A stretch of 26,229 nucleotides of DNA from a virus, in IMG/VR virus record IMGVR_UViG_3300010300_000092, positions 1-26,229 of that record. One strand, written 5' to 3'. The notes under the pieces were generated by a model. That model saw only the letters and a list, made by a program, of their open reading frames with translations. It had not been told where the DNA came from and did not search any database. Both the position numbers and the translations under genes were made by a program. Each line of letters starts with the position of its first letter. Within the stretch, counting starts at the first letter, position 1. Below, in pieces: positions 13,151-26,229 of the stretch.

Positions 13151-13882
13151 CTAGAACAGCGAGCCCTGTAACCGTCCTTCACCTACTTCCTCCCACCCCT
13201 CCGCCAAGTTTATTTCATCTTCCGCCCAATTGGTGGCGTGACAGCCGGCGGCATTCAAAAGCTTGTCCACAGCAAAGCGAGGGATCCTCTTGCCGGTTCC
13301 CGAAAGGTAGACCTCTATCTGCTGCAAGACCTCTGTGTGATCATCGAGGTTGTTCATGGCATCGTTTGCCATTCTTATATACATCTCACCGAAGTTGATC
13401 TCATTAGGCTCGAGAGGCTCCGTGGGCTGAGCCTGGTCCTTGAGCTCCAACGGTGGACCAGAACAGACTTTCCGAACCTCCAGCCACTCTTCCTTTGTAA
13501 TGCCAAGATTAGCAGCTACCTCCAGGTCAGTAGATCCACTGTAAAGCAGTCTGCGACCTTTAACCCAGCGCTCGCGCATCTTGTGACTAAGACGAACCGC
13601 ATAGGTTTTGTCCCTGACCCAGTGCAAAAGCTCTCCGCGAATAGTCGGAACTGCAAGAGAGCTAAACTTCATCGACTTGCCAGTAGTCGGGTGCGGCCTG
13701 TTAGGATCATACCTATAGGCAGCTTTACACAATCCTTCAAAAGCAACCGACTCAAGAGTTTGGTAGTCGATACCAGTGCTGCGTTGTAGACGCCATGCCT
13801 CTCGCCGTGCAAGATTCAAATTACTTGATGCGAGCTCTTGCTGTTCGCTGTTTAATTTGAACTTAGCTGGTTTCCTGGCCAT
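13151..13882 (-). CDS. Sigma-70-like factor 1 (regions 2 and 3)
   Basis: 243 residues. Residues 40-90 look like sigma region 2: DYQTLESVAFEGLCKAAYRY-D, then KFSSLAVPTIRGELLHWVRD, the segment that opens and reads the -10 element. Region 3-like sequence follows (HKMRERWVKG and a helix-turn-helix, DLEVAANLGITKEEWLEV). The last 80 residues do not show a normal region 4, the -35 reader. It lies between the large terminase and primase, 24 bases after the terminase stop. Its likely role is to direct host RNA polymerase to phage genes, perhaps the TATACT-type promoters here. Confidence 0.82.
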   Translation of the reverse strand: MARKPAKFKLNSEQQELASSNLNLARREAWRLQRSTGIDYQTLESVAFEGLCKAAYRYDPNRPHPTTGKSMKFSSLAVPTIRGELLHWVRDKTYAVRLSHKMRERWVKGRRLLYSGSTDLEVAANLGITKEEWLEVRKVCSGPPLELKDQAQPTEPLEPNEINFGEMYIRMANDAMNNLDDHTEVLQQIEVYLSGTGKRIPRFAVDKLLNAAGCHATNWAEDEINLAEGWEEVGEGRLQGSLF

Positions 13883-20927: not shown

Positions 20928-21722
20928 TCAGGCGTAAGTCCGTAGCTTTTTGATGATCGCCTTAATCTCCTTGCCAGCAGTAGGAACAGGATACCCCACA
21001 GAGTAGGCAGCCGTCGAAACTCGACCTAGCCGAGCATAAGCAATCATCAGATCCTGCTGCATAGGAGGGACCATGGCTTTCGCCATTATCTCTTTGATCT
21101 GCAACAAAGCCTCGCGAGAAGAGCGCGACTGGTCTTCGCTAGCAGGGCTTGGAATTAAACTCAACAAAGAGCCTACACCGTCTTCATTGTTGACCTTTAC
21201 GTCAAGAGAGCCAACGTTATAGGCAGTTGCGGCGGAACGAAGGTAGTCGACATCCTTAGGGGCATGCCTGCGCCCCGATCCTTTGCCATGTTTCTTGTAA
21301 TAGAACATCTCCCGGATGCAGCCCTCAGGGATATAGATCTTCTGCTCACTGGAGATTAGGTAGCGCCCAAGACGCTGTCTAATCCAGGTCACTGCAATCG
21401 TGGAAAACTTGTTTCCGCGAGCAAGGTCAAATTTTTCGGCCGCCACACGCAATCCTATGTATCCGACCTGAAGTAAGTCCAGGAACAGCTCGTCATTAGG
21501 ATTCACCCTAAAGCGATGAGTAATCTTGCTGGTATAGGCTTTGACTGCACTCACCACCAGAAGCAGGTTACCCGTACAGATGGAGTTCAAGGTCTCAAGA
21601 GCGCCCTCTTCGTCTTCAGCAGCTCGTTGGCTGCGAAGCTTGGCAAAAAGCTCCAACGTCTGTTCCTGGGTCAGCTTACGTTTGCCGGCGGCATTGAACC
21701 ATGCGGTGGTTGAATCGGTCAT
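20928..21722 (-). CDS. Sigma-70-like factor 2
   Basis: 264 residues from the ATG at 21722, preceded by GAGG at six bases; an ATG four codons upstream is possible. Region 2 is clear: LDLLQVGYIGLRVAAEKFDL, then GNKFSTIAVTWIRQRLGRYL (the -10 melting and reading segment). Region 3 probably begins at QKIYIPEGC. The C-terminal helices (MQQDLMIAYARLGRVSTAAY) sit where region 4 would be but match it poorly. The N-terminal residues 10-50 resemble sigma region 1.2. It has its own CATACT promoter after a terminator, so it may respond to the same motif it reads. Confidence 0.86.
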   Translation of the reverse strand: MTDSTTAWFNAAGKRKLTQEQTLELFAKLRSQRAAEDEEGALETLNSICTGNLLLVVSAVKAYTSKITHRFRVNPNDELFLDLLQVGYIGLRVAAEKFDLARGNKFSTIAVTWIRQRLGRYLISSEQKIYIPEGCIREMFYYKKHGKGSGRRHAPKDVDYLRSAATAYNVGSLDVKVNNEDGVGSLLSLIPSPASEDQSRSSREALLQIKEIMAKAMVPPMQQDLMIAYARLGRVSTAAYSVGYPVPTAGKEIKAIIKKLRTYA

Positions 21723-21747
21723 CGCGTGCCTCATGAGGTATGCACAC

Positions 21748-21835: not shown

Positions 21836-22516
21836 TCACCACTCACCGTACTTTGCGTTGAGCTCTTCGGCTGATTTGCTATTGAGTGTTGCGCGGCCTT
21901 TATTAAAGTCTCCGCCCAGCTTTTCTTTGACGATTTCGACGAGTGCGTCGATAGCAAAGGTTTCGACTCCTTTTTCAAGTGCTGCTTCGCGAAACGTGGC
22001 CTCCGTCTCCTCAGACGCCTTGGCAGCCTCCGCAGTAGGGGCCTTGCTGACCCCAGCGGTTGGCCGCTCGGACTTTGGGGCAGACTCAGGGGCAGACTCA
22101 GGGGCAGGGTAGCCGGACTCCATGGGCATCTTTGCCCACAGCTCGTAAGCTAGGCCGAAAATGAAGGCGGCAGCCATACAAGTACCGCGTCGCTGGGTGT
22201 CGGTAATGTCGCGAGAATCAATCTTGTCGTAGGGGATCGCGTTGTTACGGTGATCCATCACAGCTTGAGGAATCGCCGGTGTCTCAGAGCCGTCGGTGTG
22301 GACGAACTGGATCATCAAGTAAGCGCCAACAGGAGCCTTGTGCAGCAAAGTGCCGTCGTTGGCGGTGATGCAGTTGGCAGTCCAACCAGGGGCATGCTGA
22401 CGCAACAGGTGCAGGGTGCGGGCCCAGTTGATGTATATAGCGTTAAACTTGCTAGAGCCAATTGTCTCAACCAGATCCTTGGTCGCTACACCTGCGAGGT
22501 TAGGGATTTCTGCCAT
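21836..22516 (-). CDS. Sak/DUF1071-like single-strand annealing protein
   Basis: 226 residues. The N-terminal 125 residues match the DUF1071 (Rad52-superfamily Sak) pattern: KFNAIYINWARTLHLLRQHA, then AVMDHRNNAIPYD, and a final helix RGTCMAAAFIFGLAYELW. In known members the same order is Y-L-S-W-A, V-M-D-x-x-N-K-A and M-R-C-L-V-K-x-x-A-x-F-G-L. A Pro/Ser/Ala linker with 12-bp DNA repeats follows (PAPESAPESAPKSE), then a helical C-terminal domain ending KYGEW. Such proteins anneal ssDNA during recombination-dependent replication. The RecE-like exonuclease and SSB in this arm are likely partners. Confidence 0.82.
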   Translation of the reverse strand: MAEIPNLAGVATKDLVETIGSSKFNAIYINWARTLHLLRQHAPGWTANCITANDGTLLHKAPVGAYLMIQFVHTDGSETPAIPQAVMDHRNNAIPYDKIDSRDITDTQRRGTCMAAAFIFGLAYELWAKMPMESGYPAPESAPESAPKSERPTAGVSKAPTAEAAKASEETEATFREAALEKGVETFAIDALVEIVKEKLGGDFNKGRATLNSKSAEELNAKYGEW

Positions 22517-22546
22517 TTCAAGTCCTCGTGGGGAAGGTACTGGCTC

Positions 22547-22552
22547 AGTATA
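22547..22552 (-). promoter_or_regulatory. Extended -10 element TGATATACT before the annealing-protein gene
   Basis: On the minus strand GCATGATATACTGAG, with the TGn extension, ends 30 bases before the ATG at 22516. Confidence 0.62.
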
Positions 22553-22562
22553 TCATGCAAGC

Positions 22563-22883
22563 CTAGCCACCAGCAAGCCTTTTCTTTGTCTGCCGACGAG
22601 CCTCGCGAACCTTGCGATCCATAGCCTTCTTCCTGCGCTGCTTGTCCTTCTGCCAGATCCGATACTTGAGATACTCTTCTGGGTTCTCCCGAATGTAGAG
22701 AGTCCTGAAGCACAGGAGGTACCACCTAGGCCAAAGATTGAGGCCACCGAGGATAGACCAGAAATACTCCTCGCGGGTCTTGTCCCACATCAGAGCCTTG
22801 CCGATAGCCTTCCCCCCTTCATCGAAAGCTGCTTGGAGTTTTGGACACTTTGTCCATCCCCGAGGGCGGTTGTTGATCCCCAT
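22563..22883 (-). CDS. Small basic protein, first leftward gene from the origin region
   Basis: 106 residues from ATG 22883 (GAGG upstream; a GTG six codons earlier is less likely). Trp-rich and basic; the C-terminus is a run of Lys and Arg in a helix (WQKDKQRRKKAMDRKVREAR). Not recognised. DNA or RNA binding is possible from composition. It is the first gene transcribed leftward from the iteron region under a TATACT promoter, a position typical of early regulators. Confidence 0.78.
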   Translation of the reverse strand: MGINNRPRGWTKCPKLQAAFDEGGKAIGKALMWDKTREEYFWSILGGLNLWPRWYLLCFRTLYIRENPEEYLKYRIWQKDKQRRKKAMDRKVREARRQTKKRLAGG

Positions 22884-22907
22884 CGTTAGCCTCGCGCACA
22901 CGCAGAT

Positions 22908-22913
22908 AGTATA
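22908..22913 (-). promoter_or_regulatory. -10 element TATACT at the head of the leftward arm
   Basis: On the minus strand AAATATACTATCTG ends 24 bases before the ATG at 22883. It is embedded in an AT-only tract (22908-22933). Confidence 0.62.
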
Positions 22914-22946
22914 TTTTATATTTTAATATATAAGTGTTTTTCAGGA

Positions 22947-23045
22947 AGCAGGGCTGAGAACCCCACAAAAGCAGGGCTGAGAGTCCAGGGTTGAGAGTCC
23001 AGGGTCCACAGTCCAGGGTTGAGAGTCCAGGGTTGACAGCCCTGG
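22947..23045. repeat. 14-bp iteron cluster
   Basis: AGTCCAGGGTTGAG repeats head to tail at 22982-22995, 22996-23009 (TCCAC in place of TTGAG at the end), 23010-23023 and 23024-23037 (final C). Related units AGCAGGGCTGAG lie at 22947-22958 and 22970-22981. An imperfect palindrome, CCAGGGTTGACAGCCCTGG, with one mismatch, ends the block at 23027-23045. Confidence 0.95.
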
Positions 23046-23051
23046 TATATT
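23046..23051 (+). promoter_or_regulatory. Extended -10 TGGTATATT for the rightward operon
   Basis: TGG-TATATT directly follows the 19-bp palindrome and lies 22 bases before the initiator ATG at 23074. A protein bound to the last iterons would block it, which suggests autoregulation. Confidence 0.5.
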
Positions 23052-23073
23052 TTGATTACCCCGCAAACGAACC

Positions 23074-24033
23074 ATGCTTATCAAGACGGGTGTTAACCCA
23101 AAATCCGGCTTCACAAGGATTCCAAATGCTATCCTTGACGACCAAAAATTGACGGCCCATGAGCTGCTTCTCTGGATTCGACTTTTGTCGTTGGCAAGTG
23201 GCGGCGAGTTCGTGGCCCAGAACGCTACCCACGCGGCTGAGCTCTGCGGTATTGGGGTCGACGTGTTTCGCGATCGACGCAGAAATTTGACCAAAAAGGG
23301 ATACCTGGTTTCAACCGGCAAGCAGATCATCCTGACGATGCCAGATCAACCGGCAAAGCCGGAGCAACCTACAAAGCAGGAGCAACCTGCGGCTCCAGAG
23401 ATCACCCAGAAGGAAGAGCTTAACATAGCTGAAGAGATCTCGCTTCAACCCAAGCGAAAGCCAAGTGGAATCAGCCAAGCCGAAGCCTCTGCTGCAATTG
23501 TGGAGGCCTGGAACAGTCACAGACCTGACGGTTACATGGAATGCCCTAGCAAGCTGCATCCTTCTACTTTTATCGCAATTGAGACACAGGCCAAGCGCCT
23601 CGGGATTGAAAGATCCAAGTACGGCGATTTCGTGAAACGCATCCTGAAGGGCTGCGCTCAGGACGACTGGTGGAAAGAGCGCACTGCAATCAAGGCTAGC
23701 AATATCTTTGGCTTTGGCGCTCAGCTTGAAGACAAGAAGTTCCAGAATGTTGAAAAACTTTACAAAATAGGCTCCAAGGTTGCCGACAAGTTCTCCTGGA
23801 GCAATGATGACAGCATATTTGCATGGTACTCTGATGCGTGCCCTGACAGGACTTTCAACAGGATCATTCACCTCGACGTTCCTGACGCTCCGACCTCCTG
23901 GCAGCACGACGTAGAGCATCGAGATGGAGAAACCATCTTCATTTACCACAGCCTTGAAGACGATGGCTTTGTCGTGAATTGGACTTTAGGTAAGAAAGTC
24001 CAAGCCCTGAAAACCCCACCAAATCGCCGCTAA
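23074..24033 (+). CDS. Replication initiator / helicase-loader-like protein
   Basis: 319 residues. The N-terminal 85 residues look like a winged helix: FTRIPNAILDDQKLTAHELL, LWIRLLSLASGGEF, then AAELCGIGVDVFRDRRRNLT and KKGYLVSTG, similar to phage and plasmid initiators. A Pro/Lys/Gln linker (PEQPTKQEQPAAPE) follows. The C-terminal part (AAIVEAWNSHRP, KASNIFGF) resembles loader or DnaD-like replication proteins in layout. It lies three bases before the DnaB gene and next to the iterons, so binding those iterons is the natural inference. No ribosome site is evident; the start is the first ATG after the -10. No named family can be assigned with certainty. Confidence 0.78.
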   Translation: MLIKTGVNPKSGFTRIPNAILDDQKLTAHELLLWIRLLSLASGGEFVAQNATHAAELCGIGVDVFRDRRRNLTKKGYLVSTGKQIILTMPDQPAKPEQPTKQEQPAAPEITQKEELNIAEEISLQPKRKPSGISQAEASAAIVEAWNSHRPDGYMECPSKLHPSTFIAIETQAKRLGIERSKYGDFVKRILKGCAQDDWWKERTAIKASNIFGFGAQLEDKKFQNVEKLYKIGSKVADKFSWSNDDSIFAWYSDACPDRTFNRIIHLDVPDAPTSWQHDVEHRDGETIFIYHSLEDDGFVVNWTLGKKVQALKTPPNRR

Positions 24034-24036
24034 TCT

Positions 24037-25716
24037 ATGTCGTTCCCAACCTACATCCAGAAAGCCGTTGATCTTGGCCTACTAAAGGCAGAAGAGGGTA
24101 AGATCACAGGTTGCAAAAAGGACGAAGTAGAAACCGTTCTTGGCATGGCTCGCCTCATCGAAAAGATCCAACCGACTACCGGATCTGAAGTCGACGACAC
24201 TACCGACCAAGAAGCAATTGTTCTTATCCGTGTTCTGTCCTCGCCGTCAGGCAAAGCTAATGAGCTATGGGCCGATCTTCGTATCGCTTTTGGTGTTGGT
24301 CATGGTCAGGCTATTCCCGACGAACTGTGGTCTACTAGAGTCTTTCGCGCTATCGGTCGAGAAGTAGACCGCACCTTTATTGGAGAAAGGAACGCCAGCC
24401 TGATTAGCCGAGAATCCCTTATTGCGGGCTATGCAGGTTTGGATCCAGGCAGTCGTTTCGTTGGCCTCGCCGAGTTTAATAAGACCATCTCTGACCTGTC
24501 AGACGCCCGGTCTATGCAGGCCTACGGGGACCCCAACTCTGAATGGAACGTCGCTCTTGACTTACTCCGTCAAGCCAGAGTACGCGCTGTGTACCAGGAG
24601 ACCCAGCATGTAGTAGCTCAAAGCGAAAAATCTAAATCCAAGCTCGAGAAATCCATTGAGTTCCAACAGCAACAGCTCATGACCTGTCTGGGCATGTTGC
24701 GTGGCTCTATCGGCAATCAAGGGAACGCAGTCGATGCTGTCGAAGACCTGCTAACTCCTCGTCCTGGTCATGTGAGTATTATTGATCAGATCATGAACGC
24801 TCGAGAGCAGCAAGCTCCAGTCTCTACTGGAATACAAGCGTTTGACCTGGACATGGAAGGTGGTGTACGGCCTTCTGGGCAAGAGCAAGGCGGCAGACTA
24901 TTTACCCTTGGGGCTCATACAGGAGTAGGTAAAACGGTTCTTGCTGTGCATGCTGCTGTCAATCTGGCCATAAGTGGCCTGACTGTAGGCTTTATCTCCG
25001 CAGAACTTGATCGCGCCAGCATCTATGCTCGCGTCTGGGCCGCCGCAACTCGCCACCTAGAGAACAACAAGTGGGTTTCGGTTGGCGCCATTGAATCACC
25101 TAGCCATACACGTGAAAGAGATGCTGCATGCATCGCCGAGGCTGCAGCGCTTATCCAAAACGGTGGCGGCAAGCTTTTGATAGAAGATCCCTGGGGTGCA
25201 GACGTAGACGCCGTTATAAACAGCATGCGCTCTATGAAGGCTAAGAACCCAGAACTGCGTGCCGTTATCCTTGACCACTTCCATTGCCTTGGTCGTCACC
25301 AAAAAGCTTCAAGCAATGACGCCTCTATGCTAGAAGAGCGGGCATATAAGTTGACGACCGCCTCCAAAGAGCTTGGTATCGACATCTTGACTCTAGCTCA
25401 ACTCAATCGCAGCGGCATGGGCACAGATATAACAAACAACAACCCTGATGAGTCATGGATTCGCGGTACCGCCGCCTTGTCCCATGTCAGTCACGCCGTA
25501 TGGATTGTCCGCCGAGAAAAGCTCACCGAGGAGGAAATGGCCCAGCCTAACGTCAAGCGCCAGCTCGAGGTTTGGCACGTCAAGACTCGTGGCCGCCAAG
25601 CCTTCTGGCGTAACGGCATGCAAGGCGTCAAGGGCTTCGTGAATAAGTCAATGCTGCAGATGGATTATGCCTACAGCTCCGTAAGAGCCGACGACACCAT
25701 GTCACAGGTAAACTGA
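24037..25716 (+). CDS. dnaB: DnaB-type replicative DNA helicase
   Basis: 559 residues. Residues 1-250 are helical and would form the N-terminal collar or loader-contact domain. The RecA-like motor follows: Walker A LGAHTGVGKTVLA near 292-300, FISAELDRASIYARVWAAA, Walker B AVILDHFHCLG near 409, LTLAQLNRSG (H3) and WIRGTAALSHVSHAVWIVRR with the arginine-finger region. It unwinds DNA at the fork and normally forms a ring with primase, found here at 11529-13127. It follows the initiator-like gene by three bases, in one operon. Confidence 0.95.
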   Translation: MSFPTYIQKAVDLGLLKAEEGKITGCKKDEVETVLGMARLIEKIQPTTGSEVDDTTDQEAIVLIRVLSSPSGKANELWADLRIAFGVGHGQAIPDELWSTRVFRAIGREVDRTFIGERNASLISRESLIAGYAGLDPGSRFVGLAEFNKTISDLSDARSMQAYGDPNSEWNVALDLLRQARVRAVYQETQHVVAQSEKSKSKLEKSIEFQQQQLMTCLGMLRGSIGNQGNAVDAVEDLLTPRPGHVSIIDQIMNAREQQAPVSTGIQAFDLDMEGGVRPSGQEQGGRLFTLGAHTGVGKTVLAVHAAVNLAISGLTVGFISAELDRASIYARVWAAATRHLENNKWVSVGAIESPSHTRERDAACIAEAAALIQNGGGKLLIEDPWGADVDAVINSMRSMKAKNPELRAVILDHFHCLGRHQKASSNDASMLEERAYKLTTASKELGIDILTLAQLNRSGMGTDITNNNPDESWIRGTAALSHVSHAVWIVRREKLTEEEMAQPNVKRQLEVWHVKTRGRQAFWRNGMQGVKGFVNKSMLQMDYAYSSVRADDTMSQVN

Positions 25717-25728
25717 GAGAGAGGAATC

Positions 25729-26178
25729 GTGACTATGAAAAAAGTTCTTTTTGATACGGTCGTCCGAACCACCGAAGCACTGATAAGACTCTCTGACTGG
25801 TTTTATGCTGCAGTAATCTGGATTCCCTCGAACTTAGGCGAGTTAAGCCGTGTAACTATAGCGCGATTAGGCCTGTTCCTTATGAACGCAATAGACGAAG
25901 AAACAGTAAAGAAATCAAATAGCTTGCTCCCTAGCGAGCAGAAGGCAGAACTCCAGAAACAACAGATCGAGTTACATCTCTTAAGCGCGGCCTCCATGGT
26001 CCGTGATCATTACCTGGAGACAGGAGAATGGACCGACGGACACAGCGAAGCGATTGAAGCCCTTGGCAATCAGCTGCTAAATGAGTGCGACTGGGAAGAG
26101 GATGATATCCATGATTACCTGCGCTCCGTTGTAGAAGCAGGAACCGACCTTCACTATGGCATTGAAGGCTCCCCCTGA
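25729..26178 (+). CDS. Hypothetical protein, 149 aa, downstream of dnaB
   Basis: Starts at GTG 25729 or ATG 25735; GAGAGAGG lies just upstream and suits either. The N-terminal region has moderately hydrophobic helices (LIRLSDWFYAAVIWIPSNLG), possibly membrane-associated or amphipathic. The C-terminal half is acidic (NECDWEEDDIHDYLRSVVEA). Not recognised. Co-directional with dnaB and separated by 12 bases, so it is probably expressed with the replication genes. Confidence 0.8.
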   Translation: MTMKKVLFDTVVRTTEALIRLSDWFYAAVIWIPSNLGELSRVTIARLGLFLMNAIDEETVKKSNSLLPSEQKAELQKQQIELHLLSAASMVRDHYLETGEWTDGHSEAIEALGNQLLNECDWEEDDIHDYLRSVVEAGTDLHYGIEGSP

Positions 26179-26229
26179 TATAATGGAAGGGAGCCGTGGT
26201 GAGGCTCGTGGGGTGAAAGGAGGGCCGAA
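26167..26229 (+). promoter_or_regulatory. TATAAT in a hairpin loop plus ribosome site for the next gene
   Basis: A 7-bp stem (GGCTCCC at 26167-26173 with GGGAGCC at 26189-26195) encloses TATAAT at 26179-26184. GGAGG at 26219-26223 lies six bases before the window end, so the next gene probably starts just outside. No T-run follows the stem, so it is not a standard terminator. Confidence 0.45.

Follow-up and report, generated by a model that had tools for sequence, protein, structure and literature searches.

A repeat array at the initiator promoter of a cyanophage-type contig is a probable operator, and a distal array in relatives is a candidate main origin

Introduction

Does a short gap packed with repeats, lying between two divergent gene blocks and directly upstream of an initiator gene, serve as a replication origin, as the operator of the initiator operon, or as both? 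The question is raised by a 26,229-bp stretch of viral DNA (the window), which is a whole IMG/VR record and a relative of Synechococcus phages S-CBS2 and S-CRES1–3, with about 67–68% DNA identity over 20–43% of positions 22400–26229. In the literature that we searched, we found no papers on the replication origin of this cyanophage group. A first-pass annotation of the window had proposed an iteron-type origin in the gap and a single protein acting both as replication initiator and as repressor of the gene that encodes it.

The gap, about 172 bp long, separates a leftward gene block, which begins with a gene of about 106 aa followed by genes for a Sak-type annealing protein, a sigma factor and SSB, from a rightward operon encoding the initiator, DnaB and a third protein. 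The features are as follows, by window position.

22563–22883, minus strand: first leftward gene, an ORF of about 106 aa with conserved synteny
22910–22933, no strand: AT-only tract of 24 bp, a candidate unwinding element and/or leftward promoter, with a similar tract beside both arrays in relatives
22949–22963, plus strand: outer site 1, CAGGGCTGAGAACCC, an imperfect dyad
22972–22982, plus strand: outer site 2, CAGGGCTGAGA, 23 bp from site 1
22982–23037, plus strand: four head-to-tail 14-bp repeats, AGTCCAGGGT(TGAG/CCAC/TGAG/TGAC)
23027–23045, no strand: 19-bp palindrome, CCAGGGTTGACAGCCCTGG, with one mismatched pair, the best candidate dimer site, adjoining the promoter
23043–23051, plus strand: extended -10, TGGTATATT, of the initiator operon, assigned from its sequence and enriched in relatives
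23074–24033, plus strand: initiator, with an N-terminal winged helix (aa 28–87), a linker and a helical C-terminal domain
23155–23334, plus strand: DNA of the winged-helix domain, covarying with the repeat sequence
24037–25716, plus strand: DnaB-type replicative helicase
25729–26178, plus strand: third operon gene, whose syntenic counterpart is annotated as RNase III in S-CRES1 and S-CRES3

The earlier calls of a winged-helix initiator at 23074–24033 and a DnaB-type helicase at 24037–25716 are confirmed, and the product of the third operon gene had no Pfam match. Elsewhere in the contig we noted two sigma-70-like proteins, at 20928–21734 and 13151–13882 (both on the minus strand), with Sigma70_r2 matches, the second just under the family cut-off, and a Glutamine-II riboswitch aptamer at 1027–1087 on the minus strand, which scored 53 bits, where the gathering score is 33.

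Structure of the intergenic repeats

The four AGTCCAGGGT copies start at 22982, 22996, 23010 and 23024, a spacing of exactly 14 bp, and thus lie head to tail as first described; to call all four copies of AGTCCAGGGTTGAG was slightly generous, because copies 1 and 3 have that sequence and copies 2 (AGTCCAGGGTCCAC) and 4 (AGTCCAGGGTTGAC) differ from it. In 5000 dinucleotide shuffles of the gap sequence no 10-mer reached four copies, the maximum being 2, and CAGGGYTGA occurs in the window five times on the plus strand, all within the gap, and once on the minus strand (4244). The two outer GCAGGGCTGAG sites are the shorter relatives of the repeat reported in the first-pass annotation (AAGCAGGGCTGAGA at 22946 and 22969), and its AT-only tract of about 25 bp (24 bp at 22910–22933), its 19-bp imperfect palindrome with one mismatched pair (23027–23045) and the contact of that palindrome with the extended -10 (23043–23051) are all present. 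The -10 hexamer begins one base past the end of the palindrome, and the palindrome and the 14-bp repeats have CAGGGTTGA in common.

In the window the dyad symmetry of the tandem copies is weak, and some of their palindrome score follows automatically from CCAGG (CCWGG), which is nearly self-complementary; only the 19-bp palindrome is a good one. The direct repeats are best read as what may be a degenerate chain of overlapping palindromic sites, in which the site at the promoter end is a well-formed palindrome. Separately, in near-identical contigs (L003–L005), the repeat copy corresponding to window 23010–23023 has TCCAC in place of TTGAG, a difference that suggests ongoing copy conversion inside the array.

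Arrays at the same place in related phages

We collected loci by initiator and DnaB scans, the widest of which yielded 72 distinct loci, and added annotated phages; 59 gaps were kept after initiator starts had been chosen by hand and near-duplicates removed. Using a palindrome model with 6-bp arms, at most two mismatches and non-overlapping sites, we found at least three palindromes of one kind in 37/59 gaps, compared with 0/354 control windows from the same loci. Many relatives have inverted repeats of 13–19 bp, and the sites are usually spaced by about 22 bp, with 14 bp in one relative (L036), as in the window. A search for related loci with the S-CRES1 initiator as query returned no relatives.

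The repeats are thus kept across related phages, in that most relatives with the initiator–dnaB pair carry an array, and their sequence is lineage-specific: at least 15 iteron types, for example GTTGCAnnnTGCAAC, TGGACAnnnTGTCCA, GCGACAn5TGTCGC, ATCTCAn4TGAGAT and TGATCAn5TGATCA, occur on one conserved gene frame. The palindromic nature of the units in relatives, the dependence of their sequence on lineage and the second array described below had all been missed by the first-pass annotation.

The relation to the promoter is also shared. The extended -10 pattern TGnTAnnnT is found at most about 70 bp from the start codon in 26/59 gaps, compared with 3.8% of controls, and among the 15 loci that have both features the -10 hexamer falls 0–10 bp past the last palindrome in 12. 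A dimer bound there would cover the -35 region, which is our reason for proposing autorepression, and the array in the gap is a probable operator of the initiator operon. The idea of a single protein with both roles, initiation and repression of its own gene, fits the promoter overlap; the gap as the origin is not supported in this clade.

The protein that reads the repeats

To relate the motifs to proteins, we used partial Mantel tests on 32 loci with clear motifs. Motif distance tracks the N-terminal domain of the initiator given its C-terminal domain (partial r 0.35, p 0.0005) and also given DnaB (r 0.35, p 0.001). A weaker correlation persists with the C-terminal domain (r 0.24), as is expected because of linkage, and with DnaB. 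The first leftward gene (22563–22883) was considered as the reader of the repeats and is disfavoured, since its correlation with the motif given DnaB was not significant (r 0.09, p 0.11) and it is retained across motif swaps.

Two natural comparisons illustrate the same relation. L060 and S-CBS2 have DnaB proteins that are 82% identical, initiator C-terminal domains that are about 73% identical and the left gene in common, whereas their initiator N-terminal domains are only about 18% identical and their iterons are unrelated. L057 and L058 have DnaB proteins that are 99% identical, yet one has an iteron of the GTCTCAaaaTGAGAC type and the other of the CTTCCAaaaTGGAAG type, and their N-terminal changes include, among others, three residues around the recognition helix. 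We conclude that the array very probably consists of sites for the neighbouring initiator, which would be read by its winged helix.

The AlphaFold2 model of the initiator has a confident winged helix-turn-helix at aa 28–87 (pLDDT 90), a loose linker and a helical C-terminal domain. Its best named relations include a DnaD-like loader family (phrog_186, E 1.9e-8) and also initiator PHROGs, and the BFVD matches include RepA-like viral initiators (E 7e-5 to 3e-4, with low TM-scores). Foldseek of the whole initiator against the PDB gave no match below E 0.001; the non-significant matches included 4pql_B (prob 0.95, E 0.63, TM 0.48 by target length) and primosomal DnaB 5wtn_B (E 0.18).

A second array and replication skew

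Ten relatives (S-CRES1, S-CRES3, G003, G005, G006, G008, G013, G017, G024 and G027) carry a second array of the phage's own repeat together with an AT tract, 22–32 kb away on the left-arm side (in G024 if the genome is circular). The S-CRES1 array has seven gap-motif sites at about 31517–31662, with an AT tract, in a long non-coding stretch, and is overlapped by two tiny annotated ORFs. The S-CRES3 array has four gap-motif sites at 29696–29781, again with an AT tract in a long non-coding stretch, and its flanking genes are convergent. Outside the two arrays, the gap motif is almost absent in both phages. The distal arrays of G003, G006, G008, G013, G017, G024 and G027 were found by shared repeated 8-mers, and cross-motif controls gave p values of 0–0.012 for the nine distal arrays found by 8-mers; in G005 the skew maximum led to the array, which lies about 0.2 kb from that maximum. 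An AT tract adjoins the distal array in 10/10 relatives.

No distal array was detected in S-CBS2. On the left-arm side, the window reaches 23 kb and its 35-kb twin (G001) reaches 25 kb, and both contigs end short of the expected distal site. Two pattern scans of viral contigs for a distal array of the window motif returned nothing but the gap already known and repeats, simple or coding, that are unrelated. As a side observation, several distal arrays have further short elements no more than about 0.6 kb from them, namely AGTAC-GTACT palindromes and GTGATmGTGAA with its complement, which are rare in other parts of the genomes concerned; they occur at L096 30166–30348 (S-CRES3), L113 17119–17223 (G017 37119–37223), L147 7222–7283 (G027) and L104 12339–12378 (G005).

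To compare the two arrays as origins, we turned to strand composition. Plain cumulative GC skew was dropped, being confounded by minus-strand gene blocks, and was replaced by skew at 4-fold sites split by leading and lagging strand. Replication skew is separable from strand-coded skew because nearly all S-CRES genes run one way, the exceptions being the initiator operon and a small number of short blocks. Across the distal array, coding-strand skew goes up for plus-strand genes and down for minus-strand genes in S-CRES1, S-CRES3, G017 and G024. In S-CRES3, G017, G024 and G013, the distal array is in the top 0.6–1.4% of scanned positions and the best position genome-wide is within about 0.5–1.1 kb of it (in G013 at a contig end). 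S-CRES1 and G003 have a weak signal at the distal array, and G008 and G027 have none. The gap in phages with a distal array ranks at 12–94% of positions and is never the best one.

No skew switch was found at the gap in the window, its twin, S-CRES1, S-CRES3, S-CBS2, G017 or G024. In the window the gap gave an LR of 0.6 with the wrong sign, at low power (104 lagging sites), and in the twin an LR of 0.0. The best skew-switch position of S-CBS2 (GU936714.1, L092) is at about 1.0 kb, away from the gap, and no matching array was found there. Among genomes without a distal array, the skew maximum is near the gap in G019 (0.9 kb away) and G021 (1.5 kb away), and in G022 the gap has an LR of 35 and the maximum lies 5.3 kb from it; the gap is not at or near the maximum in G018, G020, G023, G025 or G030. 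The skew is suggestive and falls short of proof: it favours the distal array over the gap as origin in about half of the relatives that have one, in a scan of positions whose neighbours are correlated, with mechanical ORFs as genes and with gene content that varies along the genome. An origin in the gap, as proposed in the first-pass annotation, is not supported for this clade. The absence of a skew switch there, which that annotation named as a reason for rejecting its proposal, applies to the window, at low power, and to its close relatives, and ten relatives have a matching array 22–32 kb away; loss of the repeats from relatives, another such reason, does not apply.

Discussion

With moderate confidence, we read the gap as initiator-binding sites fused to the initiator promoter, that is, as an autoregulatory operator and perhaps an accessory origin, with the main origin being a distal array that lies off the contig. 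From what we observe directly, namely the array with its conservation and turnover, the covariation of the winged helix and the relatives' second array with its skew switch in about half of them, we infer protein binding, repression and which array fires. The N-terminal winged helix, probably dimeric, would bind the palindrome as well as the tandem half-sites, and an occupied site abutting the extended -10 would turn the initiator–dnaB operon off. The main origin in this clade would be the second array of the same sites with its AT tract, about 26–28 kb away and past the contig end, as judged from relatives. The gap array would then have the part of an operator and of a titrating site, with firing as an accessory origin a further possibility; where distant relatives have one array only, that array probably serves as both operator and origin.

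The gap could instead be the principal origin, at which the initiator, once bound to the repeats, opens the AT tract and loads DnaB, besides repressing its own gene. Iterons and an AT tract beside initiator and helicase genes are what such an origin would contain, oriLambda being likewise made of initiator-binding repeats beside an AT-rich region (PMC5043065), and G019, G021 and G022, which have no distal array, have a skew switch at or near the gap. We nevertheless consider this unlikely, because the seven genomes named above have no switch there and because the close relatives are better accounted for by the second array, which has the same motif and lies in a non-coding stretch.

It is distinctly improbable, in our judgement, that the repeats are operators of some other regulator, either a lysogeny-type repressor or the small leftward protein, which would control both arms and have no role in replication. 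Dyad sites touching an extended -10 in a divergent promoter region would suit such a regulator, but it is the initiator's winged helix that covaries with the motif, and not the left gene, which stays in place when the motif is swapped; in addition, an array of the motif lies in a long non-coding region between convergent genes in S-CRES3, and the motif occurs nearly nowhere else in S-CRES1 and S-CRES3. Neutral tandem duplication, in which slippage expanded repeats that have no function, could account for the copy content that differs among near-identical contigs (TTGAG versus TCCAC in L003–L005). We regard it as highly improbable, given that dozens of diverged genomes have an array in this position, that the array sequence changes with a protein domain and that a matching second array lies far away.

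By analogy, the system that we favour, with operator and distal origin, may work like lambda O or like the RepA_N replicons of satellites. In oriLambda, 19-bp inverted repeats are bound by O dimers next to a 40-bp AT-rich region inside gene O (PMC5043065), and our loci resemble lambda in an AT-rich tract adjacent to the array and an initiator gene adjoining a helicase-recruiting replication gene, and perhaps also in the imperfect inverted repeats of about 19 bp (PMC5043065, PMC7466680). They differ in that the array is upstream of the initiator start codon and overlaps the initiator promoter, that ten relatives have a second array 22–32 kb away and that the phage encodes its own DnaB. Because the location inside the initiator gene does not apply here, we do not file the system under the lambda type, and at the sequence level the initiator's O-like matches, phrog_345 and phrog_678, are only weak and do not amount to membership.

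In the RepA_N replicons of PLE satellites of Vibrio cholerae, the DNA-binding domain covaries with the iterons while the C-terminal domain is conserved, and module swapping is probably driven by an origin-directed nuclease (PMC8263062, PMC7145576). The phages resemble these replicons in having an N-terminal DNA-binding domain, semi-palindromic iterons and a putative origin in non-coding DNA (PMC7145576, PMC8263062), and our covariation tests found the same division between a changing N-terminal and a conserved C-terminal domain. The phages differ in having at least 15 iteron types and an extra promoter-overlapping array, and we do not class them as RepA_N because neither the window initiator nor, at E up to 0.01, 53 homologues matched the Pfam RepA_N profile. 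The F plasmid offers a third comparison: RepE binds an operator dyad, the origin iterons and a second array (PMC13028717), and the phages resemble the F plasmid, with its oriS, operator and incC, in an initiator gene downstream of iterons, a dyad that would serve autoregulation and a second array (PMC13028717). As far as sequence goes, the window has a dyad of the F type, with iteron-like half-sites at the initiator promoter. Unlike in F, the second array is tens of kilobases away in the phage genome and coincides with a skew switch in several cases, and these initiators had no Pfam Rep-family match.

We give about even chances to the broader proposal of a two-site replicon in a large cyanophage-type family, consisting of an operator array and a distal origin array, in which a change of specificity involves the winged helix and both arrays at once. 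If this is true, the family has at least 15 iteron codes on one gene frame, as expected under diversifying selection on origin specificity, for which origin-cutting nucleases or satellites are possible selecting agents. The analysis provides testable origin coordinates in the isolated phages S-CRES1 and S-CRES3, and the paired winged-helix and iteron sequences are a data set for how a winged helix selects DNA, which includes the L057/L058 pair, where few changes accompany a new site. The analysis also provides a wide-ranging natural case of the swapping of origin modules already described in PLE satellites.
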